Source of the DNA: a virus
Direction: 5' to 3' (one strand)
IMG/VR virus record: IMGVR_UViG_3300010354_000173
Location: 1-43,389 of that record
DNA: 43,389 bases
Position numbers and translations under genes: made by a program. Under the pieces are notes generated by a model. The model searched no databases and was not told the origin of the DNA. It worked only from the letters and a program-made list of their open reading frames with translations. Positions 2,643-19,274 of the stretch are shown piece after piece (position 1 is the stretch's first letter; each line of letters begins with the position of its first letter).

Positions 2643-2688
2643 AACTGGCACAGGACCCCTTTGGAAACACCCAGAGGGGTTTTATAAT
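2643..2688 (+). promoter_or_regulatory. Bipartite promoter (upstream element plus -10)
   Basis: AACTGGCACA starts at 2643 and TATAAT at 2683, 40 bp apart. Between them ACCCCTTTGG (2655-2664) pairs with CCAGAGGGGT (2671-2680) and runs into TTTTATAAT, so a terminator-like hairpin for the gene before and the -10 box for the gene after share bases. CCACTT just upstream gives a partial dyad with the element. Confidence 0.65.
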
Positions 2689-2715
2689 AAGTGCATCAAC
2701 AGGGAGATCCCCACA

Positions 2716-3084
2716 ATGACCACCACCATTGCCCGTAAGCAAGAGTTCTCTGACTTCTGTGCTCAACGTGATGCTCAGAATACTATTCAACTGAATGTTG
2801 TTAAGTGGACTTGGATGCTGTGTGATGCATTGCGTCATGCTGCACCTGATGGTTACGATTATATCTTTGAGTCTGGTAATAAGTATCACAAGGTTATCAT
2901 GATTGACTCTAGTGGTGCTCGTTCGGTTCATTGTTTCATTGATAAAAAGACTGGCGAAGTCTATAAGTCTGCTTCTTGGAAGTCTCCTGCCAAAGGTGTT
3001 CGCTACGATCTTCGTTTGATTCGTGATCGTGAATATCTGTTTGCTCATGCCGATTGGGCAGGCGCTTACCTTTACATGAAGTGA
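2716..3084 (+). CDS. Hypothetical protein, 122 aa
   Basis: I do not recognise a named family. The protein is soluble-looking with mixed charge. Its centre reads SVHCFIDKKTGEVYKSASW, followed by KGVRYDLR, a beta-hairpin-like pattern that I associate with small conserved cyanophage proteins of unknown function. GGGAGA upstream of the ATG is a good ribosome binding site, and the bipartite promoter at 2643 lies just before. The next gene begins 2 bp after its stop, so the two are probably co-transcribed. Confidence 0.75.
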   Translation: MTTTIARKQEFSDFCAQRDAQNTIQLNVVKWTWMLCDALRHAAPDGYDYIFESGNKYHKVIMIDSSGARSVHCFIDKKTGEVYKSASWKSPAKGVRYDLRLIRDREYLFAHADWAGAYLYMK

Positions 3085-3086
3085 TC

Positions 3087-3365
3087 ATGATTGAGTTTCC
3101 ACATAAAGCACCGAAAGGTTATTCATATGAAATTGAAGAGTTCAAAAGAAATGTTCTTGCTATATGGATTGTCAATCACTCTCACTTCGACTATAATGGT
3201 CGTTCTGATATTCGTTCTATTTGGGGATTTTACAATTCAAAGACAAAACAATACCACTCCCCGATTAACTCTAAGACAGTCGGTTCTTGTGTAGATATTA
3301 ACCAAACTACCCCATATTCTGCTATGATGATCAAGTTTAATCCCCTCATGTCTGCCTTTGTATGA
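3087..3365 (+). CDS. Hypothetical protein, 92 aa
   Basis: I chose the ATG at 3087, 2 bp after the previous stop, rather than an upstream start that would overlap that gene. The protein (MIEFPHKAPKGYSYEIEEF...) has alternating aromatic and polar residues suggesting a small beta-rich fold, with no catalytic motif I recognise. Its stop overlaps the next start as ATGA, indicating translational coupling in a three-gene unit (2716, 3087, 3362). Confidence 0.65.
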   Translation: MIEFPHKAPKGYSYEIEEFKRNVLAIWIVNHSHFDYNGRSDIRSIWGFYNSKTKQYHSPINSKTVGSCVDINQTTPYSAMMIKFNPLMSAFV

Positions 3366-3562
3366 TTGATGATGCCTTTACTGTACAAGAAACTCGTTGG
3401 AAAACTTGGAAAAGTTATGATAAGGACGGGAACGTACTTATTATTGCACTCACAGAAGAATCTTGTATTGCTGCAACCCGATTTTACCTTAAAGGATGCC
3501 AAGAGGGATGGAGTAATTCTGAGACAGCAACTTATGAAGGAACTGTAGGAGGCAAGCTCTGA
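3362..3562 (+). CDS. Hypothetical protein, 66 aa
   Basis: The ATG at 3362 overlaps the previous TGA (ATGA). The protein begins MIDDAFTVQETRWKTWKSYD and contains YLKGCQEGW. No family recognised. It is last in the 2716-3562 unit and is followed at once by the promoter and hairpin at 3577. Confidence 0.6.
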   Translation: MIDDAFTVQETRWKTWKSYDKDGNVLIIALTEESCIAATRFYLKGCQEGWSNSETATYEGTVGGKL

Positions 3563-3576
3563 TATGCCACTTTAAT

Positions 3577-3621
3577 AACTGTCACAGGGGTTCGTTTGGA
3601 CCCCTGGTTTTGCTGTATAAT
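3577..3621 (+). promoter_or_regulatory. Bipartite promoter with terminator-like hairpin
   Basis: AACTGTCACA at 3577 precedes TATAAT at 3616 by 39 bp. TGCCACTT at 3565-3572 forms an imperfect dyad with the element. CAGGGGT (3585-3591) pairs with ACCCCTG (3600-3606), followed by GTTTT, so this also resembles a terminator for the gene before. It drives the helicase gene. Confidence 0.65.
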
Positions 3622-3636
3622 AACTTTATTGAATTG

Positions 3637-4878
3637 ATGACGATGTTTCAACTTCGCCCCCATCAGCAACGCGCCCTTGATGCTCTCGCAAAGTATCTGA
3701 AAGGTCAGGTGATCATCCCGACTGGCGGTGGTAAGACCAACGTTGCTATCTTCGATGCAATCCGTCAGTTTCAGAGTGCAACTCCGCAGACGATTGTTGT
3801 TGTTGCTCCTCGCATTTTGCTTGCTGAGCAACTCTCTTCTGAGTTTCTTGAGTTTATCACCAATGCTGAAGTGATGCACGTTCACTCTGGCGAAACTCAC
3901 CACTACAGCACCACCAAACCTGCTCAGATTGCTGTTCACACTGGCATGTGTCTTGCTGCTGGTAAGCATCAACTTATCTTTACCACTTACAATTCTCTGC
4001 AGCGTGTACAGCAGGCAGGTATTGATGTAAATACAATTTACTTTGATGAAGCACACAATTCTGTTCAGCGTCATTTCTTCCCTGCCACCGAGTATTTCGC
4101 TGCTGCTGCTGACCGCTGCTATTTCTTCACTGCTACTCCTAAGCATTCTGCCACTGTTTTCAAACCTGGCATGAATGATTCTGCTGTGTATGGTCAAGTG
4201 ATCTGCAGTGTTCCCGCTCCTGAACTTGTGCAGGGTGGTTTTATTGTTCCTCCTAAGGTTGTTGTGCAGCAGTTTGAGATGGTCGGCAAAGGTCAGTATG
4301 TTGCCGATGTTGACTGTGAGAACATGATTGCTACCATCGATACTCAAGATGTGAGCAAGGTTCTTATCTGCTCTAAGGCAACTAAGCAGATCATGAATCT
4401 TGTTTCTCAAACTGACTTCTGCCAGCAACTTGAGGATCGTGGTTTCTCTTGGATGTATATTACTTCCAAGACTGGTGCTGTGATTGATGGTCGCAAGGTC
4501 AACCGTGAGGTTTTCTTTGAGACTCTAAGTGCATGGGGCAAAGATGACTCTAAGAAGTTTGTTGTTCTGCATCATAGCATTCTGAGCGAAGGTATCAACG
4601 TCTCTGGTCTTGAGGCAGTGCTGTTTATGCGTTCCATGGATTACATCGGTATCAGTCAAACTATCGGTCGGGTGATTCGTCTTCATAAGAACGACGCAGA
4701 GGGTCTCAGAAGCGGCGCTATTGCCCCTGGGAACCTTGACACCTATACCAAGTCCTTTGGACTTGTTTGCATCCCCGTGTACTCTCCTGTGGGCATCAGC
4801 ACCGCTAAGAAAGTGCAGGCGGTTGTTGACATCGTTTTCAACCAGGGCGAGGCGGCAGTCAGCGTGGTCAAACGCTGA
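3637..4878 (+). CDS. SF2 DEAH-box DNA/RNA helicase
   Basis: A superfamily 2 helicase of about 413 residues, from the ATG at 3637 (a second ATG follows at 3643). Visible motifs: Q-like LRPHQQRAL near residues 6-13, Walker A PTGGGKT at 28-34, Walker B DEAH at 137-140, motif III TATP at 165-168, and motif VI QTIGRVIR at 341-348. The order fits the UvsW/RecG/type III restriction-subunit-like phage helicases, which unwind or remodel branched DNA with ATP. It is shorter than UvsW and I see no extra DNA-binding domain. A TTG at 3610 in frame would lie upstream of the predicted transcript start, so I rejected it. It sits before a nuclease-like gene, and joint action on foreign or recombining DNA is possible but inferred. 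Confidence 0.85.
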   Translation: MTMFQLRPHQQRALDALAKYLKGQVIIPTGGGKTNVAIFDAIRQFQSATPQTIVVVAPRILLAEQLSSEFLEFITNAEVMHVHSGETHHYSTTKPAQIAVHTGMCLAAGKHQLIFTTYNSLQRVQQAGIDVNTIYFDEAHNSVQRHFFPATEYFAAAADRCYFFTATPKHSATVFKPGMNDSAVYGQVICSVPAPELVQGGFIVPPKVVVQQFEMVGKGQYVADVDCENMIATIDTQDVSKVLICSKATKQIMNLVSQTDFCQQLEDRGFSWMYITSKTGAVIDGRKVNREVFFETLSAWGKDDSKKFVVLHHSILSEGINVSGLEAVLFMRSMDYIGISQTIGRVIRLHKNDAEGLRSGAIAPGNLDTYTKSFGLVCIPVYSPVGISTAKKVQAVVDIVFNQGEAAVSVVKR

Positions 4879-4923
4879 ACTGTCACACCCTCCCTTGGGG
4901 ATCCCCCCTTTCTACCCTATAAT
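4878..4923 (+). promoter_or_regulatory. Bipartite promoter
   Basis: AACTGTCACA begins at 4878, overlapping the helicase TGA, and TATAAT starts at 4918, 40 bp on. A GGGGATCCCC palindrome lies between. TTGGGG, 17 bp before the -10, is a weak -35. Confidence 0.6.
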
Positions 4924-4948
4924 ACATAAGTCAAGCGAGATTACCGCA

Positions 4949-5761
4949 ATGAACAAGCAACAGGCATTTGAAACCCTCTGCAATCACTATTTCAGTGGGA
5001 TTCGTGAAGAGATTGCTATGTCTCTTCAATTCAACGATGGCATGACTTTCGACACTGGAAAGTTCGGTGAGCGTGTCAACTTTATCCTGCATGATACCAC
5101 TGGTGTTCCTTCCAATGGTGGATGTGCATTTGATGCTGCTAACTCCAGCGAAGCGAAAGGTTGCAACAAGGCACAGACTTATGTGTGCCCTGATTGTGGT
5201 GCCAAGAACAACTATTATGCTTCTGAATGCCACAAGTGTGGTGGCACTGGTCGTAAAGATCCTAACGATACTCGCTGGGGCATTGATGCTGAAGCGCACT
5301 TCAAGTACATCGATCAAATGCCGTACTATTGCATGACGATTGTTACTCCTATCAATCGTGATGTAGACTTTCCCCAGTTTAACATCAAAGTGTATCGTAT
5401 TGATGCTAAGAATGAGTTTTTCAATGCTATGCTCCGCTATCAACTTGATAATGGTAGTAAGTCGCACAAAAACTTCATGCCTCTTGGACGTGATTTCTAC
5501 ATGTCTTCTCCTTTGATTTTGGTTGACTGCAATATCACTGTGACTGACTTTGGTGTTGATTTTGTCTACTTTGATTTTGATTCTGAAGGTCGTGTGATGC
5601 ACACTATGCCTATCAATTTGTTCACCAAGAAAGAGCAAAAGCAACTCCAAGATATTGGTGGTGGTCTTTGCTCGATTCTTGAGGCAGTCAATGTCATTGG
5701 TGTTAAGGAGTCTACCCACGGTAAGGATCGTGGCAATCTGAACCGCAACAAAAACATTTGA
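4949..5761 (+). CDS. MamI-like PD-(D/E)XK restriction endonuclease with zinc ribbon
   Basis: 270 residues from the ATG at 4949, just after the bipartite promoter; the frame is open further upstream, but that overlaps the helicase gene. Asp62, Glu68 and Lys70 in FDAANSSEAKG match a D-x(n)-ExK nuclease core. A zinc ribbon follows: CPDCG (Cys80, Cys83) and CHKCG (Cys94, Cys97). I associate this combination with the MamI-type restriction endonuclease family, members of which occur in cyanophages. No methyltransferase is next to it, so a role in degrading host DNA or excluding other phages is as likely as classical restriction. The family call is from memory of the motif arrangement and is moderately sure; that it is a real gene is very likely. 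Confidence 0.65.
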   Translation: MNKQQAFETLCNHYFSGIREEIAMSLQFNDGMTFDTGKFGERVNFILHDTTGVPSNGGCAFDAANSSEAKGCNKAQTYVCPDCGAKNNYYASECHKCGGTGRKDPNDTRWGIDAEAHFKYIDQMPYYCMTIVTPINRDVDFPQFNIKVYRIDAKNEFFNAMLRYQLDNGSKSHKNFMPLGRDFYMSSPLILVDCNITVTDFGVDFVYFDFDSEGRVMHTMPINLFTKKEQKQLQDIGGGLCSILEAVNVIGVKESTHGKDRGNLNRNKNI

Positions 5762-5768
5762 GGTAACT

Positions 5769-5921
5769 ATGAGTAACATTCGTCGCACTGTTTATGCACT
5801 TTGGATCGATGATGAAGTGCATTCAATTTGGAAAAGGGCATGGCAGGCAGAGAGTCGCCTGATCTCATATCGTAAGCGCAAACCCAACTCTGTTGTTGAA
5901 CTTGAGGAGGTTAATTACTAA
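5769..5921 (+). CDS. Small basic protein, 50 aa
   Basis: ATG at 5769, 7 bp after the nuclease gene with GAGGT as ribosome binding site. The protein (MSNIRRTVYALWIDDEVHSI...) has an Arg/Lys-rich middle (SYRKRKP). No family recognised. It overlaps the next gene by one base (TAATG), so it is translationally coupled. Confidence 0.6.
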   Translation: MSNIRRTVYALWIDDEVHSIWKRAWQAESRLISYRKRKPNSVVELEEVNY

Positions 5922-6067
5922 TGAGAGAGTTTCTTGAAATTATCGCAATCATTGCCCTTTGGTATGGTTGTATGCTGTTACTTCTTCCAGTTTCTCCATT
6001 CACTTCTGTAATTATGAGTGGATGGTTTGGTTGGAATTTACTTCAAATTTTTAGAGGCAAACGTTGA
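5921..6067 (+). CDS. Small membrane protein, 48 aa
   Basis: Start overlaps the previous stop (TAATG), with AGGAGG about 8 bp before it, a strong ribosome binding site. The sequence is hydrophobic in two stretches, roughly residues 4-27 and 31-42, and ends in a positively charged RGKR, so it is probably a one- or two-span inner-membrane protein. Function unknown. Confidence 0.6.
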   Translation: MREFLEIIAIIALWYGCMLLLLPVSPFTSVIMSGWFGWNLLQIFRGKR

Positions 6068-6294
6068 CGGATCCCTACATGCTAACTCTATCTGCAAAAC
6101 CTCCAGACTACGTTACTAAAGATGGAATGTGGGCAGCGATACCCTTTTCGGGTACAAAGTATGTTATAATCAATCATGGAAAGCAGGTCCATGTTGCCAA
6201 CAACTTTGATACTGCTGTCGCTTACATAAAGAAACAAGTTTCAATCTCACGCAAATCCAAAAGCAAAGCAAAACTCAATTTCGATCATGATTAG
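6064..6294 (+). CDS. Hypothetical protein, 71-76 aa
   Basis: Either a TTG start at 6064, overlapping the previous gene by 4 bases with AGAGG 8 bp upstream, or the ATG at 6079. Spacing and coupling favour TTG. The C-terminus is very basic (SISRKSKSKAKLNF). The middle reads GTKYVIINHGKQVHVANNFDTAVAYIKK, shortened here to its key parts: a beta strand followed by a helix. No family recognised. Confidence 0.55.
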   Translation: MTDPYMLTLSAKPPDYVTKDGMWAAIPFSGTKYVIINHGKQVHVANNFDTAVAYIKKQVSISRKSKSKAKLNFDHD

Positions 6295-6517
6295 TATGCC
6301 AAACCCAATCACCAAAAGTATAGTTCACATGGAACTCACCGCTGCTGAACTCAGTGTACTTATTTCTGCACTTGCATACCTTGGAGCGAGTTATGAGCAG
6401 GAGTTGAGTGTCAAGTACACTTCTGTAAGTGCTCTGTTCAACAAACTCAAAGAAAACTGGGAGATTCTTGATACTTTCGATAAAATCGAAGTCGAAGCGG
6501 GGGCAGAGGCAGTCTAG
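6287..6517 (+). CDS. Small acidic helical protein, up to 76 aa
   Basis: ATG at 6287 overlaps the previous stop; ATGs at 6296 and 6329 are alternatives. From 6329 it reads MELTAAELSVLISALAYLG, a likely amphipathic helix, and then a charged helical region. It ends in an acidic tail (DKIEVEAGAEAV). No family recognised. Last gene of the 2716-6517 accessory block. Confidence 0.6.
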   Translation: MISMPNPITKSIVHMELTAAELSVLISALAYLGASYEQELSVKYTSVSALFNKLKENWEILDTFDKIEVEAGAEAV

Positions 6518-6526
6518 GTCCTCTGC
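6503..6526 (+). terminator. Hairpin over a stop codon
   Basis: GCAGAGG (6503-6509) pairs with CCTCTGC (6520-6526) around a 10-base loop that holds the TAG stop. No T tract follows, so its role as a terminator is uncertain. Confidence 0.35.
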
Positions 6527-6576
6527 AGCGAAATTTCAAAAAAATCAGGTTTTTGCCCCAGTCATAGCAAGGGGTT

Positions 6577-6618
6577 TGGGCAGGGTGGTCAATCCATACC
6601 TGCCCATTAGGCATTTTT
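6577..6618 (+). terminator. Probable rho-independent terminator
   Basis: TGGGCAGG (6577-6584) and CCTGCCCA (6599-6606) form a perfect 8-bp stem with a 14-base loop; a T run (6614-6618) follows at a short distance. It lies just before the halogenase late promoter and would separate the two units. Confidence 0.5.
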
Positions 6619-6626
6619 CTAAATAG
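6619..6626 (+). promoter_or_regulatory. T4-like late promoter (CTAAATAG)
   Basis: CTAAATAG resembles the TATAAATA late motif recognised by gp55-type sigma factors in T4-like phages. It sits 18 bp before the halogenase ATG, with no -35 box. Confidence 0.5.
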
Positions 6627-6644
6627 CACAGAATTGTAATAATT

Positions 6645-8756
6645 ATGAAAATTTGTATTGTTGGTCAAGGTGTTGCTGGATGGATGACAGCAACTGCATT
6701 GTCAAGACGGGGCATTCCTAATCTTGAAAAAATTACAATCATAGGTTCTGAAGAAATAAAATCTATTGGTGTTGGAGAATCAAACACAATGGCGTTATTG
6801 CATTTTTTTCAAAACTATAATATACCATTAGATAGTTTTATAAGAGACTCTGATGCATCTGTAAAACTTGGTGTTTATTATAAAGATTGGGGAGACCATG
6901 ATTTCTTACATAATTTTAAGCAAGGATCTGCTATTGCTGATGATTTTTTATTCAAATCTCTTTCTAATAAACCACCAGAAGTTTCAGTTACAGATATAAT
7001 TGCTCCAGAGTTATGGAAAAAAATTCATCATAACTTAATACCATTGACTGACGAATGGTATGGTAGATCCTGGCATTTTGATGCTGCAAAATTTATTTCT
7101 TTTCTTGAGAAATTAAATAAATCTAATTCATTAATAGAATCAATAAAAGATAATGTAGATGATTGTGTCTTTTCTGCTAATGGTGAATTAAAAAGTTTAA
7201 TCTTAAAATCTGGAAATAAAATAAATGCAGATTATTTCGTATTTGCAAACGGTTCATCTTCTCCAACTTTAAATGCTAAACTTGGAAAAAAATATGTTGA
7301 TCTCTCTGATATACTTTTAACCAATAAAGCCTGGGTTTATCCCCTAAAATTTACAGATAAAAGAAAACAATTTCATCCATATACAATGGCAAAAGCAATG
7401 AATTGTGGATGGAGATGGATAACTCCTACTTATTCTAGAATTGGGACTGGATATGTTTTTAGCTCAAGACATATTAGTGATGATGAAGCATTAAATGAAT
7501 TTTTAATGGATATTGGTGATACCTCAATTTCTCCAAAATTAGTTGATTTTAAACCAAGATATGATGAACAAACATTTAAACAAAACTATTGCACTGTTGG
7601 AATGAGTAATGGATTTTTAGAACCTCTTGATGCACCAGGATTAAGTATAACAGTAGTTGCAATAGAATATTTGATTGAACTATTACAAATGAAAATTAAT
7701 CAAAATTTAACTTTTGATGAAGTTGAGTTTTATAATTTTGCTTTCAACATTCCTATGTCTGATTTATATAAAAAGTGGTGCTCTTTTATTTTAAATCAAT
7801 ATAAAACTTCAAACTCAAAACATACTAAATTTTGGATAGATCATCGAAATGTTCAATATGATTACTATGATGATATGTGGAAATCTATTAAATGTGGTGT
7901 GGAAATTTGGGAAGATTTTAAGACAATGTTTTGTCACACATCTGCATCAAGAAATTATCGTTGGGAAACAAATATTACACAAAAACCGATTTCTCAAAAG
8001 ATACCAAAACAAGAATGGTTACATCATTTAGATTATATTGATAGTATTAGAGGCAAAACTAATACCAAAGAAGATACTTATAGTAAAGATTATTTCGTTT
8101 CTTTCAAAGAAAACATATGGGAGTTAAATAATAATTTGCAAATAGAAGAAGAAATTTTTGAAGATAGTAAAATATACTATGTTGATAACTTTTACAAAAA
8201 TCCAGATAAAGTATTATCTGAAATAAAAAGTAAAAATTCTCCTCTATGGAAGATAGCGGAACCAAATACACTCAACTCTACAATGTTTGAAGATAGAAGA
8301 TTGGAAATGAAATATAAACAGTTAAGTTCTGTTTATGATTTTATTTCATCTATCGTTCATCAATCACCGCAGTATAACAAACCTAATCGATTGATCACAA
8401 ACAATCTTCTTTTATACAATCATCCATATAATAATTTTGAAGACAGTTATTGGTGGCCACATCAAGATGTTGGATATACTGGTATTCTTTATTTAAATAA
8501 AGATTGTGGTGGAAAAACTGGAACCAATCTATACCAAAATCTGGGAGAAGATTTAAACAATGATGAATTTGAGCATTCATCTCCTTGGAGATCGAAGAAA
8601 CTATATGGTGTAATAAAATATCTTGAATCAAAGTTCAACCGACTTGTATTATTTGATGGTCGAAAATATCTTCATGGAGCACATATTGAAGATGATAGAC
8701 ACATGAAAGAACCTAGAATGAATCAGGTATTTTTCTTCGAACAAGTGGACAGTTGA
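6645..8756 (+). CDS. Flavin-dependent halogenase fused to an iron-oxygenase-like domain
   Basis: Two domains in 703 residues. Residues 1-450 are a tryptophan-halogenase-type flavoprotein: FAD-binding GQGVAG (7-12), GVGES (42-46), catalytic Lys candidate Lys74 in VKLGVYYKDW, and the halogenase signature GWRWITP (255-261, usually GWxWxIP). This class makes HOCl or HOBr from a flavin hydroperoxide and uses the lysine to halogenate an aromatic substrate; cyanophages are known to carry such enzymes. Where RebH has Glu-Ser in PLES, this protein has Asp329-Ala330 (EPLDAPG). Residues 505-703 look like a DUF6445-type 2OG-Fe(II) oxygenase fold: HQD at 606-608, GGKTGTNLY (622-630), a distal His at 677 or 680 and Arg691. 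I see no frameshift between the two parts. The substrate cannot be read from sequence. The gene is AT-rich like the structural genes and has a late-type promoter. Confidence 0.85.
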   Translation: MKICIVGQGVAGWMTATALSRRGIPNLEKITIIGSEEIKSIGVGESNTMALLHFFQNYNIPLDSFIRDSDASVKLGVYYKDWGDHDFLHNFKQGSAIADDFLFKSLSNKPPEVSVTDIIAPELWKKIHHNLIPLTDEWYGRSWHFDAAKFISFLEKLNKSNSLIESIKDNVDDCVFSANGELKSLILKSGNKINADYFVFANGSSSPTLNAKLGKKYVDLSDILLTNKAWVYPLKFTDKRKQFHPYTMAKAMNCGWRWITPTYSRIGTGYVFSSRHISDDEALNEFLMDIGDTSISPKLVDFKPRYDEQTFKQNYCTVGMSNGFLEPLDAPGLSITVVAIEYLIELLQMKINQNLTFDEVEFYNFAFNIPMSDLYKKWCSFILNQYKTSNSKHTKFWIDHRNVQYDYYDDMWKSIKCGVEIWEDFKTMFCHTSASRNYRWETNITQKPISQKIPKQEWLHHLDYIDSIRGKTNTKEDTYSKDYFVSFKENIWELNNNLQIEEEIFEDSKIYYVDNFYKNPDKVLSEIKSKNSPLWKIAEPNTLNSTMFEDRRLEMKYKQLSSVYDFISSIVHQSPQYNKPNRLITNNLLLYNHPYNNFEDSYWWPHQDVGYTGILYLNKDCGGKTGTNLYQNLGEDLNNDEFEHSSPWRSKKLYGVIKYLESKFNRLVLFDGRKYLHGAHIEDDRHMKEPRMNQVFFFEQVDS

Positions 8757-8758
8757 GA

Positions 8759-8802
8759 AAGTGGCACATGATCGGTTTTTTCCGATCATCTTGCCCTATA
8801 CT
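8759..8802 (+). promoter_or_regulatory. Bipartite promoter
   Basis: AAGTGGCACA at 8759 precedes TATACT at 8797 by 38 bp. TGATCGG (8769-8775) and CCGATCA (8782-8788) form a perfect 7-bp stem around six T's. The end of the halogenase gene just upstream contains GTGGACAGTT, a near inverse of the element. Confidence 0.55.
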
Positions 8803-8824
8803 AACTTCATAATCAATCAAACAC

Positions 8825-9202: not shown

Positions 9203-9360
9203 TTAACTTTATCACTGGAACTATTTTCGGTATTATTGTTGCTACCGTTGGTTTTGGTCCTATTGCCAAAGCATTGGATGGTGCAATGTTTAATCTACAG
9301 AAAACCACTGTAGAGATGACCAGACCTCCGCTCCCTCCTCCTGGACAGTCTGCAAACTGA
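9199..9360 (+). CDS. Small membrane-anchored protein, 53 aa
   Basis: Coupled to the gene before by ATGA. Residues 3-25 are hydrophobic (FITGTIFGIIVATVGFG), a likely membrane span or uncleaved signal; the tail is proline-rich (RPPLPPPGQ). No family recognised. The stop overlaps the next bipartite promoter element. Confidence 0.6.
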   Translation: MINFITGTIFGIIVATVGFGPIAKALDGAMFNLQKTTVEMTRPPLPPPGQSAN

Positions 9361-9399
9361 CCACTGCCCCCTTTCCTGGGGCAACAGTGGCTGTATAAT
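9355..9399 (+). promoter_or_regulatory. Bipartite promoter with hairpin
   Basis: AACTGACCAC at 9355, including the preceding stop codon, precedes TATAAT at 9394 by 39 bp. CCACTGCCCC (9361-9370) pairs with the segment GGGGC...AGTGG (9378-9390), leaving a small bulge. The leader ACAAGGTAATCAA (9401-9413) is repeated at the next promoter (9595-9607). Confidence 0.6.
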
Positions 9400-9425: not shown

Positions 9426-9539
9426 ATGTGGGACGAAATCCAAGACATGCCTGGTGAAATCTTCGACATTGAAGAGTGGGGGCATCCGCTCGCTGAGTGC
9501 TGGCATGACATGGAACTTAACCAAACTGAGGAGGAGTGA
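9426..9539 (+). CDS. Very small acidic protein, 37 aa
   Basis: ATG at 9426 with GGAG as ribosome binding site and a clear promoter in front. Acidic (MWDEIQDMPGEIFDIEEW...) and rich in Glu and Asp, with two Trp and two His residues in the second half. No family recognised. Its own promoter and the next promoter on the far side make it a one-gene cassette. Confidence 0.55.
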   Translation: MWDEIQDMPGEIFDIEEWGHPLAECWHDMELNQTEEE

Positions 9540-9548
9540 CACTTTAAA

Positions 9549-9593
9549 AGGTGGCACACCACGTCACCAAACCTCCCCCCTCTGCCCTATAAT
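9549..9593 (+). promoter_or_regulatory. Bipartite promoter
   Basis: AGGTGGCACA at 9549 precedes TATAAT at 9588 by 39 bp. TGACACTT (9537-9544) gives an imperfect dyad with it. The leader repeats ACAAGGTAATCAA of the promoter at 9355. Confidence 0.6.
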
Positions 9594-11316: not shown

Positions 11317-11981
11317 ACTCATTTCAACCAATTAAAAAATTTACTATTCCATACTTAATTCTAAAAGTAGAAGATTGGGATAAAAAGTATAATTTATTGT
11401 ATGATCACATTTCCAAATTAAATTTATTAATTGGTAATGAATCTGGAGATTCTTATGTTCCTACTGATTTTTGGAATGGGAATAATCATGAAAATTGTAA
11501 TTTTATTTCAACTTTATTAAAAGATGAAATAGACAAAATAAGTCGAAAATTCTTTGAATATGCAAATGAATTTCAATGTTCTAATGATATGGGTTATGGC
11601 TTTGCAGAGAGTTATAATGAAGATCAACATAAATTTTTAATTAATACCAGTTGGTTTGAATTATCAAATACATATCATTGGCATCCACCCCATGATCATG
11701 GAACTACAGAACTTGCATGTGTTCTTTACATAAACTTTGATCAAAGAGTTCACAAACCACTTGAGATGATTTCTCCATTTCTATCTTTTAGTTCTACAAG
11801 AGTTTCTTTCACTCCAGAAAACATAGAATCTGGTGATATTATATGTTTCCCTGGAAATATAATGCACTATACTTATCCAAATGATAGCGTAGTTCCAAGG
11901 TTAGTTGCAGCATGGAATATGAATAGAAAATTAACTTACGATCAGAATATTCAAATCAAAGAAATCACTAAAAATCAATGA
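11313..11981 (+). CDS. Putative 2OG-Fe(II) oxygenase (TIGR02466-like)
   Basis: 222 residues, starting in an ATGA overlap. The core reads SWFELSNTYHWHPPHDHG and then a strand (ELACVLYINF); His127 and His129 are ligand candidates, with distal His185 in GDIICFPGNIMHYTYP and Arg196 in PRLVAAWNMN. This order (W...H-x-H...P-x-x-x-H...R...N) fits the TIGR02466 group common in cyanophages. The protein shares no close sequence with its neighbour at 10705, so they are not a recent duplication. Substrate unknown; the position just before collar genes suggests a target in the virion, but that is inference. Confidence 0.7.
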   Translation: MNSFQPIKKFTIPYLILKVEDWDKKYNLLYDHISKLNLLIGNESGDSYVPTDFWNGNNHENCNFISTLLKDEIDKISRKFFEYANEFQCSNDMGYGFAESYNEDQHKFLINTSWFELSNTYHWHPPHDHGTTELACVLYINFDQRVHKPLEMISPFLSFSSTRVSFTPENIESGDIICFPGNIMHYTYPNDSVVPRLVAAWNMNRKLTYDQNIQIKEITKNQ

Positions 11982-13475: not shown

Positions 13476-13476
13476 G

Positions 13477-14205: not shown

Positions 14206-14213
14206 GGTATTCA

Positions 14214-14819
14214 ATGAACGGAAAATTTGAAGATTTTATCGGAGTTTGGGAACGCGCATTACCCCAACCTAACTGTGAACGCATCATCGAAAAGTTTAAG
14301 ATGATGAGAGATCTGAGCTGTATTAATGGAATGGATGGAACGAATCAGTTTCCAGATTCTAATGCAGGTCGAAAGGATTATGCTTATAATCTACAACATC
14401 TTGATGACTTTTGTTATAATGATGATGAGCATACAAGAGATTTACCTGTACTGAATCAGTTTCTTTTACAATGCCTTGAGAGTTATGTAAAAGAATATGG
14501 AGTGATTGACCGCAAGAGATTGTACAGTCATTGTAATAAGGTTCAGCACACTCCTGCTGGCGGTGGTTATCATGTATGGCACGATGAATTAGGAGAAAAG
14601 GCAGAACATTCTGATCGTGTCTTAGTTTGGATGTGTTATCTGAATGAAGAATTTGAAGGTGGAGAAACCGAATTCTTATATCAGAAGAGAAGAGTTAAAC
14701 CAACCACAGGTACAATGTTAATCTGGCCAGCATACTTTACTCATCATCACCGAGGCGGATTGGTTCTCAATGGTGATAAGTATGTTGTAACTGGTTGGTT
14801 TCACCAGAACTATGCATAA
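14214..14819 (+). CDS. Prolyl-4-hydroxylase-like 2OG-Fe(II) oxygenase
   Basis: 201 residues. YHVWHDE (around residues 119-125) carries the first His and acidic ligand, EGGETEF (148-154) is the typical strand turn of P4H-like enzymes, THHHRG (176-181) holds the distal His, and Lys189 in GDKYVVTGWF replaces Arg as 2-oxoglutarate anchor. The order matches cyanophage P4H-like proteins, usually about 200 residues. Predicted reaction: hydroxylation of proline or a related residue with O2 and 2-oxoglutarate. It lies 8 bp behind the Pro-rich collar gene, so a virion protein target is plausible but unproven. Its last 10 bp overlap the end of the endonuclease gene on the other strand. Confidence 0.8.
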   Translation: MNGKFEDFIGVWERALPQPNCERIIEKFKMMRDLSCINGMDGTNQFPDSNAGRKDYAYNLQHLDDFCYNDDEHTRDLPVLNQFLLQCLESYVKEYGVIDRKRLYSHCNKVQHTPAGGGYHVWHDELGEKAEHSDRVLVWMCYLNEEFEGGETEFLYQKRRVKPTTGTMLIWPAYFTHHHRGGLVLNGDKYVVTGWFHQNYA

Positions 14820-15835
14820 CGCCAACGATACCCATAACAACTAATCCATCCATCACCTGCTCTATTCAAACGGTGATTGATGTTACCTGTGGCACTATAA
14901 TCACCTTCACCCTTAATAAAGAATGAAGCCTCGCTAATGCTGTTGAATCTCAACACATTATCGGGGTTATTTACTTCTATGGCAATCACTGCTCTCTTCT
15001 TTTTAGCATTACTAATTGCTGCTGCCTTCCGTGCAGATTCACTACTAAAGGTATTACGCTGTGCAATCTTAAACTCGCCCAACTTAACTTTATGTTCCTG
15101 ATTATCATAGAATAAGTACCAACCATATGCTGTCAGTTTATTATTCACAGGGCTCTTCAATGAAAGATTCACCGAACAATTATTCTTACGATCTCCCGAC
15201 AATTCTTCACAACAATCCGCCTGATTCTTCCATTCCTTATATTCACCAGTCTCTAGGTTATAACCATAAACACCAAAGCGACGATTCACACGACGTATAA
15301 TATCTTTAGGTTTCTCACCCTTATATGCCCATCTGTATCCCATTGCCTGAAAGGTAATACCTTTAATACATGCATTGATTGTACCCTTTGCCTTATAATC
15401 ACCTAAAGTATTCGCAGCAACTCCAGAGGTCTCATAATCACAAACCCATTCACCTTCTAAGGTATAACAACTTACAGGTTTAGAATGAGGATGTCTATTC
15501 CAATCCTTAGGTTTCTTTTTAATACCTTCACCACCTAACGTACAGTTATATCCATTGTTATATGTGTCAAGTTTAGTAATCCAATATGTCTCTCTTTCAT
15601 TGACTATATCATCCTTACATTCTTCTATCACTCTAAACTTAAAGTTCTGAATACCATACTTATTCATTGCTTTTAGTATCGTCATTGAATGAGCAGAGTT
15701 ATTCTCATTTAGATTAGTTAAACTCTTTGCTAACTGTACATGCTGCTTCCATCGATCATAAGGATTAGGTTTGCTAGTCTTACCCACATATTGTTTGTTA
15801 TTGGTGAGGTTTGTAATGGAGTAGATGTGAGACAT
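14810..15835 (-). CDS. GIY-YIG homing endonuclease with NUMOD-type DNA-binding repeats
   Basis: 341 residues on the minus strand, the only clear minus-strand gene in the window. The GIY-YIG nuclease domain fills residues 1-104: IYSITNL and QYVGKT for the two strands, Arg28, catalytic Glu82 in RETYWI, and NNGYNCTLGGEG. The rest holds three intron-endonuclease-type repeats ending GYRWAYKG, YGWYLFYD and GYRWRYA, probably DNA-binding (NUMOD/IENR1-like). Such proteins cut a long asymmetric site in a related phage so that their own gene is copied in. It is free-standing, not inside an intron. It converges with and overlaps the P4H-like gene by 10 bp, and a repeat array lies just upstream. Confidence 0.85.
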   Translation of the reverse strand: MSHIYSITNLTNNKQYVGKTSKPNPYDRWKQHVQLAKSLTNLNENNSAHSMTILKAMNKYGIQNFKFRVIEECKDDIVNERETYWITKLDTYNNGYNCTLGGEGIKKKPKDWNRHPHSKPVSCYTLEGEWVCDYETSGVAANTLGDYKAKGTINACIKGITFQAMGYRWAYKGEKPKDIIRRVNRRFGVYGYNLETGEYKEWKNQADCCEELSGDRKNNCSVNLSLKSPVNNKLTAYGWYLFYDNQEHKVKLGEFKIAQRNTFSSESARKAAAISNAKKKRAVIAIEVNNPDNVLRFNSISEASFFIKGEGDYSATGNINHRLNRAGDGWISCYGYRWRYA

Positions 15836-15891
15836 ATGTATTCGTGTGTTCTGTCTTATATTATGTATTTGCTGAGTTTGATGTTTTATTG

Positions 15892-15908
15892 CTATTGAGA
15901 ATCAATAG
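15892..15908. repeat. Small perfect hairpin
   Basis: CTATTGA-GAA-TCAATAG, a 7-bp stem with a 3-base loop, upstream of the endonuclease gene. It shares the core TTGAGAAT with copies at 15913-15924 and 16561-16572. Confidence 0.5.
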
Positions 15909-16024
15909 TTATTATTGAGAATTAATGTTTGAAAGAGTCATTAAATCCTCAGAGTTCTTGTGATCTAAGCGAGCGTAACATGAAGCGCCGATTTTGTCAA
16001 CCCCCACCCCCAAAAACATAAGGA

Positions 16025-16316
16025 TCTAGTCTAGAATCCCACACAGAATCTCGACGAGACATACACATAATTCTCGACGAGCTCTGAGCATTATGTCAAT
16101 CTCGACTAGACACTTCATAAACTGTCACACATCTCGACGAGACATCATAAATAGTGCTATAATACTCGTGTACACAACAAATCTAGTCGAGAATCATGTA
16201 CGACGATTATGCATACGAATATCTCGTCGAGACCTATGACATGGGCGAGCAAGATGCGCCTGAGTGTAGAGATCTCGACGAGGATTATGCGCGAGATACA
16301 CATGATCTCGACGAGC
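16025..16316. repeat. Array of the palindrome TCTCGWCGAGA
   Basis: About nine copies in 292 bp, each an 11-bp palindrome with an odd central base: exact at 16049, 16132 and, with central T, 16222; last base changed at 16072, 16273 and 16306; variants with TCTAG on one side at 16025, 16100 and 16182. Spacing is irregular (10 to 50 bp between starts). Some copies lie in non-coding DNA, others inside the ORF at 16196, where they read as Asp-Leu-Asp-Glu. CTAGA and CTCGAG variants continue to about 16475. Confidence 0.8.
16120..16163 (+). promoter_or_regulatory. Bipartite promoter inside the palindrome array
   Basis: AACTGTCACA at 16120 precedes TATAAT at 16158 by 38 bp; a TCTCGACGAGA palindrome (16132-16142) lies between, where a -35 box would be. 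Drives the ORF at 16196. Confidence 0.55.
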
Positions 16317-16339
16317 TTGCCTACAAGCATTATGCATGA
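16196..16339 (+). CDS. Small acidic protein, 47 aa
   Basis: ATG at 16196 behind a promoter. The product (MYDDYAYEYLVETYDMGEQD...) is very acidic and Tyr-rich and contains DLDE twice, encoded by copies of the palindrome array. It is unclear whether protein sequence or DNA sites are what is kept. Such acidic small proteins can be DNA mimics, but I see no family. Confidence 0.5.
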   Translation: MYDDYAYEYLVETYDMGEQDAPECRDLDEDYARDTHDLDELAYKHYA

Positions 16340-16345
16340 TATAAT
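16317..16345 (+). promoter_or_regulatory. Sigma70-type promoter
   Basis: TTGCCT (16317-16322), 17 bp, then TATAAT (16340-16345), overlapping the end of the ORF at 16196 and serving the ORF at 16372. A palindrome copy (16306-16316) abuts the -35 box, so a protein bound there would affect it. Confidence 0.5.
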
Positions 16346-16371
16346 GATCTAGAACACACCCACAGACGATC

Positions 16372-16527
16372 ATGTATCTCGCACAGAAACGTAACGTAAC
16401 TATCACGTTAGATATTACGTGTCATGAGGATCTAGACCTAGAGGATATCAATTGGCGTGAAATGCTCAGGCTCGAGCATGATGAAGATATCCATGTTAGC
16501 ATCCGCGAGGCACCTGATATCTGGTAA
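16372..16527 (+). CDS. Small acidic protein, 51 aa
   Basis: MYLAQKRNVTITLDITCHED, then DLDLEDINWREMLRL and a short strand ending DIW. A strand, an acidic loop with a DINWREML helix and a final strand suggest a small folded protein of a type I connect with conserved cyanobacterial and cyanophage hypotheticals. The promoter and the hairpin after its stop make it a self-contained unit. Confidence 0.55.
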   Translation: MYLAQKRNVTITLDITCHEDLDLEDINWREMLRLEHDEDIHVSIREAPDIW

Positions 16528-16533
16528 TTCACA

Positions 16534-16580
16534 AATATTAATATTCTCAATAAACGCCACTTATTGAGAATTCTAATATT
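16534..16580 (+). terminator. Long inverted repeat, possible terminator
   Basis: AATATTAATATTCTCAATAA (16534-16553) pairs with 16561-16580 with two mismatches around a 7-base loop: a 20-bp AT-rich stem. There is no separate T tract, though the arm itself ends in TAATATT. It closes the two-ORF unit before the GC-richer block. Confidence 0.5.
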
Positions 16581-16586
16581 TACTGT

Positions 16587-16604
16587 GACAGTTCTAGAAC
16601 TGTC
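16587..16604. repeat. Perfect 18-bp palindrome
   Basis: GACAGTTCTAGAACTGTC, a perfect palindrome that includes the upstream element of the next promoter. It is the most complete dyad form of that element, with TGTGACAGTT on the left and AACTGTCCAC on the right. Confidence 0.75.
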
Positions 16605-16642
16605 CACTGTATACCCCACTGGGTCTCCTGGTGGGGTATATT
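16598..16642 (+). promoter_or_regulatory. Bipartite promoter, -10 inside a hairpin
   Basis: AACTGTCCAC at 16598 precedes TATATT at 16637 by 39 bp. TATACCCCAC (16610-16619) pairs perfectly with GTGGGGTATA (16631-16640), so most of the -10 box sits in the right arm of a 10-bp stem with an 11-base loop. Confidence 0.6.
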
Positions 16643-16648
16643 ACTCTC

Positions 16649-16825
16649 ATGTTCACAAATTCCTCCGTGAAAGAGTACAGAATTCGTGTTGAAACCAACG
16701 ACGGTTGTTGTACAATTTGGTATGAGAAGTCAAGGGCAAAGAATGCCAGTTCGATTATCTGCGATCGTGTTACAAACCAATTGATGGGTTTGAATCTCAA
16801 ACGTGTGGAAGTTGACGTGATTTAG
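16649..16825 (+). CDS. Hypothetical protein, 58 aa, possibly leaderless
   Basis: The ATG at 16649 follows the -10 box by 6 bases, so the transcript would start on or next to the ATG, with no leader or ribosome binding site. An in-frame GTG at 16631 would precede the transcript. The product reads MFTNSSVKEYRIRVETNDGC, then a Trp/Lys region and a strand ending VEVDVI: a small beta-rich protein. No family recognised. Confidence 0.6.
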   Translation: MFTNSSVKEYRIRVETNDGCCTIWYEKSRAKNASSIICDRVTNQLMGLNLKRVEVDVI

Positions 16826-16832
16826 TATATCA

Positions 16833-16856
16833 TGTGCCACATGTAGAAGTGGCACA
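16833..16856. repeat. Inverted repeat TGTGCCAC-N8-GTGGCACA
   Basis: Perfect 8-bp arms with an 8-base spacer. It contains the upstream element of the next promoter, in the GTGGCACA form, as a full dyad. Confidence 0.75.
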
Positions 16857-16891
16857 GTAAATCACCAAACCCACCTGCACCGTGCTACATT
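16847..16891 (+). promoter_or_regulatory. Bipartite promoter
   Basis: AAGTGGCACA at 16847 precedes TACATT at 16886 by 39 bp. The -10 box departs most from consensus in this group. Drives the gene at 16913. Confidence 0.5.
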
Positions 16892-16912
16892 ACATTTGTT
16901 CCTGAGAAAAGT

Positions 16913-17140
16913 ATGACTTCCACCAACAACATTCGTGAATGGGCAGATCGTCAAAGTGTGCTTGAAGTGTATGCTGAGGTGATCATGGATGGCATGGACA
17001 TGAAGACAATGGAGCAGTTCGTGTTTGATACTCTGTGCCAAAATCTTTCGGAGTATTCGAATGAAGAATTGATCACTGAGATCACTGAATCTTATGGTGA
17101 AGAGTTCTTCACTGAAAACGACCTGGAACTTCCTGCCTGA
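16913..17140 (+). CDS. Acidic helical protein, 75 aa
   Basis: MTSTNNIREWADRQSVLEVY and a sequence rich in Glu and Asp with predicted helices through most of its length; it ends TENDLELPA. No family recognised. 9 bp before the next gene, which is similar in acidity; the two are probably co-transcribed. Confidence 0.65.
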   Translation: MTSTNNIREWADRQSVLEVYAEVIMDGMDMKTMEQFVFDTLCQNLSEYSNEELITEITESYGEEFFTENDLELPA

Positions 17141-17149
17141 GTATAACAA

Positions 17150-17362
17150 ATGCAATTCCAAGTTACTGAAATCGAGTTCGATTTTGATGATGATGCATTT
17201 GATGATCCTGAGGAGTTTTGTTATAGCGATGCAATGGATCTGACTGATGAGATCATCGGATCGATTTGGGAGGCAGTTGATGGTGATGATTTGGTAGAAG
17301 AGATCACCGCAATGGTAGGATGGTGCATCAAAAGTATTGATTACCGTATCATCCTTAAGTAA
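17150..17362 (+). CDS. Very acidic protein, 70 aa
   Basis: Starts 9 bp after the previous gene. The N-terminal half is strikingly acidic (FDFDDDAFDDPEEF), then a helix (TDEIIGSIWEAVDGDDLVEE) and a hydrophobic end. The charge pattern would suit binding to a basic protein or mimicking DNA, but I see no family. Confidence 0.65.
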   Translation: MQFQVTEIEFDFDDDAFDDPEEFCYSDAMDLTDEIIGSIWEAVDGDDLVEEITAMVGWCIKSIDYRIILK

Positions 17363-17396
17363 CACAAACTCATGTGCCAGTTGGCAAAGTGGCACA

Positions 17397-17432
17397 AGAC
17401 CCCTTGATTTTTGCCCGAATCTGTGCCATGCT
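17397..17432 (+). promoter_or_regulatory. Upstream element AAGTGGCACA, -10 unclear
   Basis: AAGTGGCACA at 17397 forms a dyad with TGTGCCA at 17373-17379. No convincing -10 lies at 38-40 bp; CATGCT (17427-17432) is closer and weak. This is the one element copy that breaks the spacing rule. Confidence 0.35.
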
Positions 17433-17438
17433 TAGCGC

Positions 17439-17609
17439 ATGATCAAAACCACTTCAAACCCCTACATCGCTCAAATCTACGCCAAGGGTCGGGACTATGT
17501 GCCCACCCCTGCCAAACTGGGGGAGTTCCCCAAGACCATCCACGGTCGCACTTTTGAGACTGAGGCAGAATACCGCGAGGCGATCGCGGACATGCTCAAC
17601 GGGATGTGA
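17439..17609 (+). CDS. Hypothetical protein, 56 aa
   Basis: ATG at 17439; product MIKTTSNPYIAQIYAKGRDY, then PTPAKLGEFPKTIHG and a helix (ETEAEYREAIADML). The codon use is GC-rich, unlike the structural genes. No family recognised. It is too short for most ORF cutoffs but fits between two element copies. Confidence 0.55.
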   Translation: MIKTTSNPYIAQIYAKGRDYVPTPAKLGEFPKTIHGRTFETEAEYREAIADMLNGM

Positions 17610-17618
17610 CAGTCTCCG

Positions 17619-17663
17619 AACTGTCCACCAATTGCCCCATTGCCCCTCAGGGGGTGCCATACT
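17619..17663 (+). promoter_or_regulatory. Bipartite promoter
   Basis: AACTGTCCAC at 17619 precedes CATACT at 17658 by 39 bp. TGTGACAGT just before it (17606-17614, within the end of the preceding gene) makes an inverted repeat with the element around CTCCG. Confidence 0.55.
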
Positions 17664-17690
17664 ATTCACATCAACCAAAGGGAGTTCCCC

Positions 17691-18005
17691 ATGCGTAAGA
17701 TTGAAAAGCAAATGAATGCCGCCATCACTGCTGGCAAAGATTGGAAATCTGCTAACACTGAAGTGATCGCATGTTCCAACGTTTCGGATGTATTTTTGCA
17801 CGGCAATCTGATCGCCCGAATCGGTGAAACTTGGATCGAACTTTTTGACGGTGGTTGGCAGACTGTCACCACCAAGTCCCGCCTGAATGCTATTCTTGCC
17901 GAGCACGGATTGCCTGGTGAGTTTGTCTTTCAGAAGAACTTTCAGTGGTTTGTGCAACAGGAAGGGGGTGCAATTCCTTTCTTCTCTGGTATGCGTCTTG
18001 CCTGA
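17691..18005 (+). CDS. Hypothetical protein, 104 aa
   Basis: I chose the ATG at 17691 (GGGAG before it) because upstream starts would precede the predicted transcript. MRKIEKQMNAAITAGKDWKS, then strands (VFLHGNLIARIG, TWIELFDGGWQTVTTKSRLN) and a C-terminal aromatic region: a mixed alpha/beta small protein that I link with unnamed cyanophage early proteins. TGATG overlap couples it to the next gene. Confidence 0.65.
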   Translation: MRKIEKQMNAAITAGKDWKSANTEVIACSNVSDVFLHGNLIARIGETWIELFDGGWQTVTTKSRLNAILAEHGLPGEFVFQKNFQWFVQQEGGAIPFFSGMRLA

Positions 18006-18172
18006 TGTTTCACACTCTCACTAAATCCCGTTCCGCAAATTATCACCGCCAAAGTATGCTGAAACTCACCGCCTGCGCTCTGCTCCTGTGGTTGCTTTGG
18101 GAACCGATCCAACCGATCCGTGCTGTGACAGCTGACGCACTGCACACTACCGCCAACCTGATTCACCGCTGA
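18005..18172 (+). CDS. Small membrane protein, 55 aa
   Basis: Starts at TGATG overlap. A basic N-terminus (MFHTLTKSRSANYHRQSM) precedes one hydrophobic stretch (LTACALLLWLLW), so probably a single-span inner-membrane protein with the short basic end inside. Function unknown. Confidence 0.55.
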   Translation: MFHTLTKSRSANYHRQSMLKLTACALLLWLLWEPIQPIRAVTADALHTTANLIHR

Positions 18173-18204
18173 CCCCTTAGAATACTGACAACAGCACCGA
18201 ACCG

Positions 18205-18426
18205 ATGCAACCGCTCAAGATCCGCGACGCTCACCGCATGATCGCCAAAGCAGGAGGCACCATCCACCAGGGGGGCAAGCACAACAAAGTGACCCACCCC
18301 AACCTGACGCAAACTTTCACCCTACCCCATAGGGGTGCAAAGGGTCGCCCGACCCTATCCCCTGGAATGACCGTAGAATTTAACAAATTTCACGCCATGA
18401 TGCTGGCAGTTCGGGACGCTTCCTGA
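18205..18426 (+). CDS. HicA-like toxin-fold protein, 73 aa
   Basis: The pattern RMIAKAGGTIHQGGKHNKVT with His26 and then HPNLTQTFTLPH and LSPGMTVEF follows the HicA mRNA-interferase layout: helix, strand with the catalytic His after a small-residue pair, two further strands and a helix. HicA proteins cut mRNA and are normally paired with HicB. No HicB-like gene is seen beside it, so it may be a solo phage regulator or not toxic at all. TAGAAT upstream (18178) is a possible -10. The next promoter element overlaps its stop. The fold call is moderately sure. Confidence 0.6.
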   Translation: MQPLKIRDAHRMIAKAGGTIHQGGKHNKVTHPNLTQTFTLPHRGAKGRPTLSPGMTVEFNKFHAMMLAVRDAS

Positions 18427-18471
18427 ACTGTCCACCAATCCCCCCAAAGGGGTCCGCTGACCCCTTATAAT
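18426..18471 (+). promoter_or_regulatory. Bipartite promoter with hairpin
   Basis: AACTGTCCAC at 18426, overlapping the preceding stop, precedes TATAAT at 18466 by 40 bp. AAGGGGTC (18447-18454) and GACCCCTT (18459-18466) form a perfect 8-bp stem with a 4-base loop that touches the -10. Confidence 0.65.
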
Positions 18472-18497
18472 ACTTTCAGATCAAACGAACCGACCTT

Positions 18498-18665
18498 ATG
18501 ACCATTGAGCAGGCAGAGCAAATCTGGCAGGACTGCTACAACAGCGCCGACCTCTCCCTCTGGAATCAGTACACCAGCGCCCAGCGTCTGCAGGCAATCG
18601 AAACCCGCGACGCTCATGCCAACGGTGGACAGTGGGGAATCTGGAACATCAGCGACCGCGACTGA
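18498..18665 (+). CDS. Hypothetical protein, 55 aa
   Basis: MTIEQAEQIWQDCYNSADLS, rich in Trp, Gln and Ala, all predicted helix, ending WGIWNISDRD. GC-rich codons. No family recognised. Its leader ends in CGAACCGACCTT before the ATG, the same as that of the next gene. Confidence 0.6.
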   Translation: MTIEQAEQIWQDCYNSADLSLWNQYTSAQRLQAIETRDAHANGGQWGIWNISDRD

Positions 18666-18709
18666 CCCCCAGACCCCTTAGGATACTCTCAAACAAACGA
18701 ACCGACCTT

Positions 18710-18892
18710 ATGGCAATTTTCTCCATGGCATCCGACCTCGCTACCCGTGAGGTGCGCTTTGTGCCCCGTAAGACTGAGACCGCACCCCAGAGCGTCTACG
18801 CTGGTCAGGTGCAGGCGCATGAGGGTTGGTGGTATGCAGGATGCTACGCTGACCGCTACGCTTCGGATGTCGTGCCTGTGACGTTCGACTAA
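18710..18892 (+). CDS. Hypothetical protein, 60 aa
   Basis: ATG at 18710 behind a leader near-identical to that of the previous gene (CGAACCGACCTT); TAGGAT (18679-18684) is a possible -10. MAIFSMASDLATREVRFVPR at the start and HEGWWYAGCYADRYASDVVP later: a compact beta-type protein with aromatic residues. No family recognised. The TAA stop overlaps the next promoter element. Confidence 0.6.
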   Translation: MAIFSMASDLATREVRFVPRKTETAPQSVYAGQVQAHEGWWYAGCYADRYASDVVPVTFD

Positions 18893-18936
18893 GTGGCACA
18901 GGGGTCCCCACAGGGTCCCCTCCCACCCCTTATAAT
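18891..18936 (+). promoter_or_regulatory. Bipartite promoter
   Basis: AAGTGGCACA at 18891, overlapping the preceding stop, precedes TATAAT at 18931 by 40 bp. GGGGTCCCC lies between. The part from 18906 on is identical to the promoter at 19229. Confidence 0.65.
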
Positions 18937-18959
18937 TCTTTCAGATCAAACGAAACGAC

Positions 18960-19229
18960 ATGACCGCAACCCTCAGCACCTACAACGGTTGGGCAACCTA
19001 CGAAACCTGGAATGCTGCCCTCTGGGTTGGCAACGATGAGTTCCTGTACAACACCGCCAAAGCGTGTGTGGAGTTCTGCTCCGATGATGAGACCCCGTGG
19101 GAGAAGTTCGTGCGCTGCATGACTGAGGGGCAGATCGGTCGCCACCTTGGCGGCACCCCTGACGGTGTGGCATGGGATAGCGTCGCCATCGATGCCGATG
19201 AGATGAATGCCATGATGGTCGATCTCTGA
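18960..19229 (+). CDS. YETWN-motif protein, 89 aa
   Basis: MTATLSTYNGWATYETWNAA with NGW...YETWN and LWVGNDEFLYNTA is a pattern found in a family of short phage and plasmid proteins (DUF7249-like in my memory) of unknown function. The rest is acidic with two Cys-containing helices (KACVEFC). GC-rich. It lies between identical 39-bp repeats and so looks like a movable cassette next to the ArdA-like gene. Confidence 0.7.
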   Translation: MTATLSTYNGWATYETWNAALWVGNDEFLYNTAKACVEFCSDDETPWEKFVRCMTEGQIGRHLGGTPDGVAWDSVAIDADEMNAMMVDL

Positions 19230-19274
19230 ACTGTCCACCTGACCCCCACAGGGTCCCCTCCCACCCCTTATAAT
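19229..19274 (+). promoter_or_regulatory. Bipartite promoter
   Basis: AACTGTCCAC at 19229, overlapping the preceding stop, precedes TATAAT at 19269 by 40 bp. Drives the ArdA-like gene. Confidence 0.65.

Follow-up and report, generated by a model that had tools for sequence, protein, structure and literature searches.

A promoter class of T4-like cyanophages shares its geometry with the promoter of the cyanobacterial small RNA Yfr2/Cyano-1

We analyzed a 43,389-bp stretch of viral DNA (the window), a genome fragment from a T4-like cyanophage of the Kyanoviridae type. Within the phage collection it is most closely related to cyanophages, and its proteins include UvsW-like, gp6-like, gp8-like and Kyanoviridae gp96 proteins. 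Late promoters of the form TATAAATA precede structural genes at 22641, 24867 and 40615. Behind the second of these lies a single open frame of 5213 aa (24968-40609), set between the gp6-like and gp8-like baseplate genes. Positions 6645-8753 carry unusual cargo for a cyanophage, a halogenase-like gene whose 703-aa product matches a tryptophan halogenase domain (E 4e-74) and, weakly at its C-terminus, DUF6445. Among long genes on the minus strand, only a GIY-YIG endonuclease gene (14810-15835) has a family match, and it adjoins the start of the densest cluster (16.1-19.3 kb) of the promoters listed here.

These promoters pair a dyad with a -10 hexamer at a narrow range of distances. Offsets run from the start of the right half-site to the first base of the -10 hexamer, and E-values come from a whole-promoter profile (2e-10 to 1e-3 on window sites), being rough owing to how the search tool is built.

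2629-2688, plus strand: promoter; dyad 2629-2652 (right half 2643-2652), TATAAT 2683-2688, offset 40, profile E 2.8e-9
2654-2681, plus strand: terminator-like hairpin in the spacer of the preceding promoter; -19.1 kcal/mol, T-run continuing into TATAAT
3563-3621, plus strand: promoter before the UvsW-like helicase; dyad 3563-3586, TATAAT 3616-3621, offset 39, E 2.1e-10
4864-4923, plus strand: promoter; dyad 4864-4887 (left half weak), TATAAT 4918-4923, offset 40
8745-8802, plus strand: promoter; dyad 8745-8768, TATACT 8797-8802, offset 38, hairpin 8769-8788
9341-9399, plus strand: promoter; dyad 9341-9364, TATAAT 9394-9399, offset 39
9535-9593, plus strand: promoter; dyad 9535-9558, TATAAT 9588-9593, offset 39, E 1.8e-9
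16106-16163, plus strand: promoter; dyad 16106-16129, TATAAT 16158-16163, offset 38
16584-16642, plus strand: promoter; dyad 16584-16607, TATATT 16637-16642, offset 39, strong hairpin 16609-16641 (-23.3 kcal/mol)
16833-16891, plus strand: promoter; dyad 16833-16856, weak -10 TACATT 16886-16891, offset 39
17373-17432, plus strand: previously unlisted 14th dyad; dyad 17373-17396 perfect, poor -10 CATGCT 17427-17432, offset 40
17605-17663, plus strand: promoter; dyad 17605-17628, weak -10 CATACT 17658-17663, offset 39
18412-18471, plus strand: promoter; dyad 18412-18435 (left half partial), TATAAT 18466-18471, offset 40, hairpin 18447-18466
18877-18936, plus strand: promoter; dyad 18877-18900, TATAAT 18931-18936, offset 40
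19215-19274, plus strand: promoter; dyad 19215-19238 (left half weak), TATAAT 19269-19274, offset 40

All 13 elements reported in the initial annotation are present, each followed 38-40 bp on by TATAAT (nine sites) or a near match (TATACT, TATATT, TACATT and CATACT). The element sequences it gave hold in general, with corrections at 2643 (AACTGGCACA), 9355 (AACTGACCAC) and 9549 (AGGTGGCACA). It missed the perfect 14th dyad, TGTGCCAGTTGGCAAAGTGGCACA, whose right half starts at 17387; a dyad-only position matrix trained on other viruses recovers this site together with the noted ones. The spacing is as fixed as it had claimed. When tolerant half-sites were paired with -10-like hexamers (TAnnnT, at least 4/6), the window held 12 pairs at 38-40 bp, whereas 200 random sequences drawn from a dinucleotide model averaged 0.76 and never exceeded 3. 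Random distances between element and -10 are not seen in the window, where any other single offset gives at most two pairs.

A large viral collection reproduces the architecture. We assembled 439 non-redundant sites from IMG/VR loci, using the left half-site in little of the selection, and obtained the consensus TGTGnCAnTT-N4-AAnTGnCACA, a 28-30 bp spacer, TATAATA, a YAT start and an A-rich leader, so the full form proposed earlier is indeed this dyad. A third right-half variant is AACTGTCCAC. Spacings are 39 bp in 243 sites, 40 bp in 117 and 38 bp in 79. The predicted start is the A of YAT, about 7 nt past TATAAT, which places the beginning of the right half at -50 to -52, the dyad axis near -53.5 and the whole dyad at -66 to -43. 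The pattern AACTGTCCACN{28,30}TATAAT has at least 120 matches in IMG/VR, versus 38 in all at the control spacing N{18,20}, and the element pattern read backwards or at control spacing gives few or no matches. Dyads picked without requiring a -10 also show the spacing: with palindromes counted on both strands, a -10 lies at 38-40 bp in 17 of 32 dyads in P-SSM2 and 12 of 24 in S-SKS1, and across both whole genomes these distances are far commoner than any other. Some strong dyads (S-PM2 20116-20139, 20411 and 20668; window 17373-17396) lack a good -10 within the 38-40 bp range; alternative -10 variants or a different role may account for them.

The -35 box, described at the outset as missing or poor, leaves no trace in the 439-site logo, where positions -36 to -30 carry at most 0.26 bit each. 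T4 early promoters have a -35, and T4 middle promoters combine a MotA box near -30 with a -10. The cyanophage promoters share with the middle class a -10 lacking a -35 and an activator-dependent logic, but where that class has one box at -30 they have a dyad at -66 to -43. We found no MotA box some 13 bp before the -10, and no position between -41 and -17 is conserved above 0.32 bit. They also depart from the T4 late (gp55) type, a TATAAATA -10 with no upstream element: dyad sites have TATAAT.

Many of these units also appear to end the upstream gene. Arbiol 2010 and Comeau 2014 reportedly describe PeSL (promoter-early stem-loop) cassettes of T4-type phages. In the viral set, 43% of the 439 spacers contain a hairpin at least as stable as -9 kcal/mol, versus 3.6% of shuffled spacers, and many sites directly adjoin the upstream stop codon. 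Because about half of the spacers hold a hairpin, the units resemble PeSL cassettes, which likewise join a compact intergenic promoter to a stem-loop terminator amid many small genes; the S-PM2 site at 11361-11405 overlaps a stem-loop named in a discussion of PeSLs (PMC4503421). Compared with PeSLs as characterized in that secondary description, the units here enclose the hairpin within the promoter and have an activator dyad where a -35 would be. We consider it very unlikely that the sites are ordinary PeSL cassettes, meaning sigma-70 early promoters with -35 and -10 plus a stem-loop, spread by recombination and sharing their 10-mers by descent and not by function. Only the dyad, the -10 and the start are conserved while spacer sequences are unrelated, there is no -35, half of the sites have no strong hairpin, and the same dyad occurs in cells outside any phage context. 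The initial annotation had proposed a specific activator or sigma-factor contact as opposed to terminator debris. The specific contact is upheld, with an activator favored over a special sigma factor, by the fixed spacing, the strict dyad, the absent -35 and the same geometry at a cellular sRNA; the dismissal of terminators went too far, as hairpins are often part of the unit. Such a hairpin would let a single intergenic cassette close one gene and open the next.

The promoter class extends across cyanomyoviruses. A search of related genomes, as the initial annotation had suggested, found the same architecture in all 12 tested (Syn9, S-PM2, P-SSM2, P-SSM4, S-SZBM1, S-SKS1, S-CRM01, S-RSM4, S-TIM5, S-SM2, P-HM2 and S-SSM7), with 2-24 copies per genome under promoter model R1 at E<=0.001. 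The model matched none of six other phages: T4, KVP40, the podocyanophage P-SSP7, the siphocyanophage P-SS2, Ma-LMM01 and HTVC008M. Sites concentrate in runs of small genes with no assigned function after and around uvsW, as in P-SSM2 (42-69 kb), S-SKS1 (149-169 kb) and the S-PM2 'ORFanage'. These genes are probably early. The restriction to accessory genes, asserted previously, fits most sites but is too strict, because among the phages looked up single sites lie ahead of uvsW (the UvsW-like helicase gene in the window and in P-SSM2), cobS or a gene for a peptidase, or come after gp32. The claim that late structural genes lack the element holds, both in the window and for those sites of other phages that we inspected. 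The element may already have been mentioned in Doron 2016 (Syn9 transcriptome), Arbiol 2010, Comeau 2014 or Lambrecht 2018.

Up to 24 sites per genome, some of them dyads with no good -10, could suggest that the dyads mainly titrate a host regulator, with Yfr2 shut down after phage replication. A decoy would need neither a -10 at a fixed 38-40 bp nor a conserved start region, and we regard this reading as highly improbable.

The same promoter geometry stands before a cellular small RNA. Among 386 cyanobacterial genomes the bare dyad has about 127 matches, versus about 43 for a reversed control, a roughly threefold excess confined to genomes of 3-8 Mb. In 10 of 40 fetched cellular dyad loci, a Cyano-1/Yfr2 sRNA lies right behind the dyad (Rfam RF01701, E 2.5e-7 to 3.9e-4), and in eight of these ten the right half starts 48-50 nt from the sRNA 5' end. 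The minus strand of Nodularia spumigena CCY9414, a genome recognized by its yfr2 position, provides an annotated start: the right half begins at 460246 and the yfr2 5' end is 460195 (PMC3610870). This distance of 51 nt equals the phage prediction, in which +1 falls 50-52 nt from the right-half start. We rely on the Rfam and Nodularia evidence because the cellular -10 peak at offset 40 is modest (8 of 61 oriented sites, where the mean is 1.8) and partly reflects orthologous loci. This promoter type is not a phage invention.

Other cellular matches led elsewhere. The best R1 profile matches in small cyanobacterial genomes, from the 386 searched, look like chance or A+T-rich sequence. Proteins of 225-233 aa encoded beside cellular dyads, considered as CRP-type regulators, turned out to be Mn catalase, DUF218, ABC transporter and other proteins. 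In three large cyanobacterial genomes (L520, L522 and L528) a AAGACAGTT-N4-AACTGTCACA dyad is conserved next to an S41 peptidase gene, and another TGTCAC lies close by; in L520 a divergent DUF218 gene flanks the dyad on the other side. This dyad could be another target of the same regulator.

Marine picocyanobacteria use the same half-sites in another order. The 10-bp half-sites AACTGnCACA and TGTGnCAnTT appear both in the viral logo and before yfr2 of Prochlorococcus MED4, a genome recognized by its sRNA coordinates (PMC2518516). The MED4 yfr2 promoter contains AACTGGCACATGTGACAATT, a pattern without a second match in the genome; a near copy lies upstream of yfr4. Fetched marine picocyanobacterial yfr2 loci, from MED4 and marine Synechococcus-like genomes, have AACTGnCACA followed by TGTGnCAnTT with no gap (10 convergent, 0 divergent), an order that the phage element does not match: IMG/VR loci have 203 divergent N4 arrangements, TGTGnCAnTT-N4-AAnTGnCACA, versus 11 convergent ones. 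The Cyano-1 promoters of larger-genome cyanobacteria have the divergent N4 order, as in phages. Yfr2 promoters drive an sRNA, and the phage versions drive mRNAs of small proteins. No divergent dyad occurs in the sampled Yfr2-bearing picocyanobacterial genomes of 1.6-2.7 Mb, and on this ground we rejected a picocyanobacterial host regulon under that form. In the convergent marine loci (L594, L596, L600, L603, L606, L609, L612 and L642) the half-sites lie at two distances from the sRNA, about -73 to -54 in some and about -36 to -18 in L596, L603 and L606, where the proximal half-site overlaps the -35 position.

The MED4 site points to a regulator. In published work (PMC6778093), the GntR regulator PMM1637 binds the MED4 yfr2 promoters carrying CGRE1 and controls two Yfr2 homologs by way of this motif, for which the MED4 genome has no further site. 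A unique AACTGGCACATGTGACAATT before yfr2 with a near copy at yfr4 fits this statement, and from that uniqueness and position we infer that the half-sites before yfr2 are CGRE1. The phage element is CGRE1-like; we do not call it CGRE1 itself because its half-site order differs. Two reviews equate PMM1637 with PlmA, a protein reported to be possessed by all cyanobacteria and by cyanobacteria only, which binds PII-PipX and is linked to thioredoxin (PMC6243067, PMC7344720); its regulon has been described as undefined (PMC6243067). Each of the five cyanobacteria tested has one PlmA-type GntR, Nodularia CCY9414 having an unrelated second GntR as well, and the helix-turn-helix stretch is conserved between the two clades, for example TGLHRNTISKVY.

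A conserved cyanobacterial regulator other than PlmA could instead bind the dyads and act on Yfr2/Cyano-1, a reading that draws on the phage half-site order being unlike that of the MED4 site bound by PMM1637. That one 10-bp half-site precedes this sRNA family in both clades, that the DNA-binding region of PlmA is conserved between them, and that PMM1637 is published to bind CGRE1-bearing yfr2 promoters together make this quite unlikely.

The main alternative is a phage-encoded activator that functionally replaces MotA and shares its half-site with a cellular regulator by coincidence. T4-like cyanophages lack MotA, AsiA, Alt and Mod, and their early/middle (pre-late) transcription control has been described as unclear (PMC2984593). 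The divergent N4 order, frequent in phages, does not occur in the marine host genomes that were sampled, and many phage genes have unknown functions; genes common to the element-bearing phages form too many families to pick one regulator. Against an activator of this kind, cellular Yfr2/Cyano-1 genes have this dyad at an equal distance from their start, in one case an annotated 5' end, and no GntR gene was found in the eight phages tested. HTVC008M, a SAR11 phage also listed in Kyanoviridae, has no element, which counts for a host factor, although its absence would also follow had that phage lost a phage factor. Overall we judge a phage activator unlikely.

The reading that we favor, and consider probable, is that the dyad promoters are early or accessory phage promoters that copy the Yfr2/Cyano-1 promoter and are activated by host PlmA. 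Because they have the same build as a conserved host sRNA promoter and the same half-site, the phages probably use a host regulator and not their own. Three observations count against PlmA: the convergent order in marine yfr2, the absence of the divergent dyad from the sampled Yfr2-bearing picocyanobacterial genomes, and the lack of the element in Ma-LMM01, whose host should have PlmA. Under the PlmA reading, small phage genes, mostly of unknown function, would be driven by a dedicated promoter class composed of an activator dyad near -53.5, no -35, TATAAT and a start at the A of YAT. Judging from the shared half-site, host PlmA (PMM1637 in MED4) would bind the phage dyad and recruit host RNA polymerase with the primary sigma factor, presumably sigma-A, to these -35-less promoters. 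Its effect there would be activation, and the timing early. Cyanophages place other genes under host regulators too, through PhoB boxes at pstS and NtcA sites; those serve a few metabolic genes, whereas one phage genome can contain as many as 24 dyad promoters, serving genes in what is probably the early region.

A promoter class found across the family, for which a specific host protein is the candidate activator, bears on both pre-late transcription control in T4-like cyanophages and the PlmA regulon, and it predicts transcript starts to the base at more than 100 places. If the phages do copy the Yfr2 promoter under PlmA, their gene expression would be tied to the nitrogen/carbon and light state of the host, giving host nutrient and light conditions a direct route to set infection speed in the ocean. 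For T4-like cyanophages as a group, the chances seem evenly balanced that a large part of the early regulon is under PII/PipX-linked, redox-sensitive PlmA through copied Yfr2 promoters. In an infected picocyanobacterium, the phages and not the host would then hold most PlmA target promoters.
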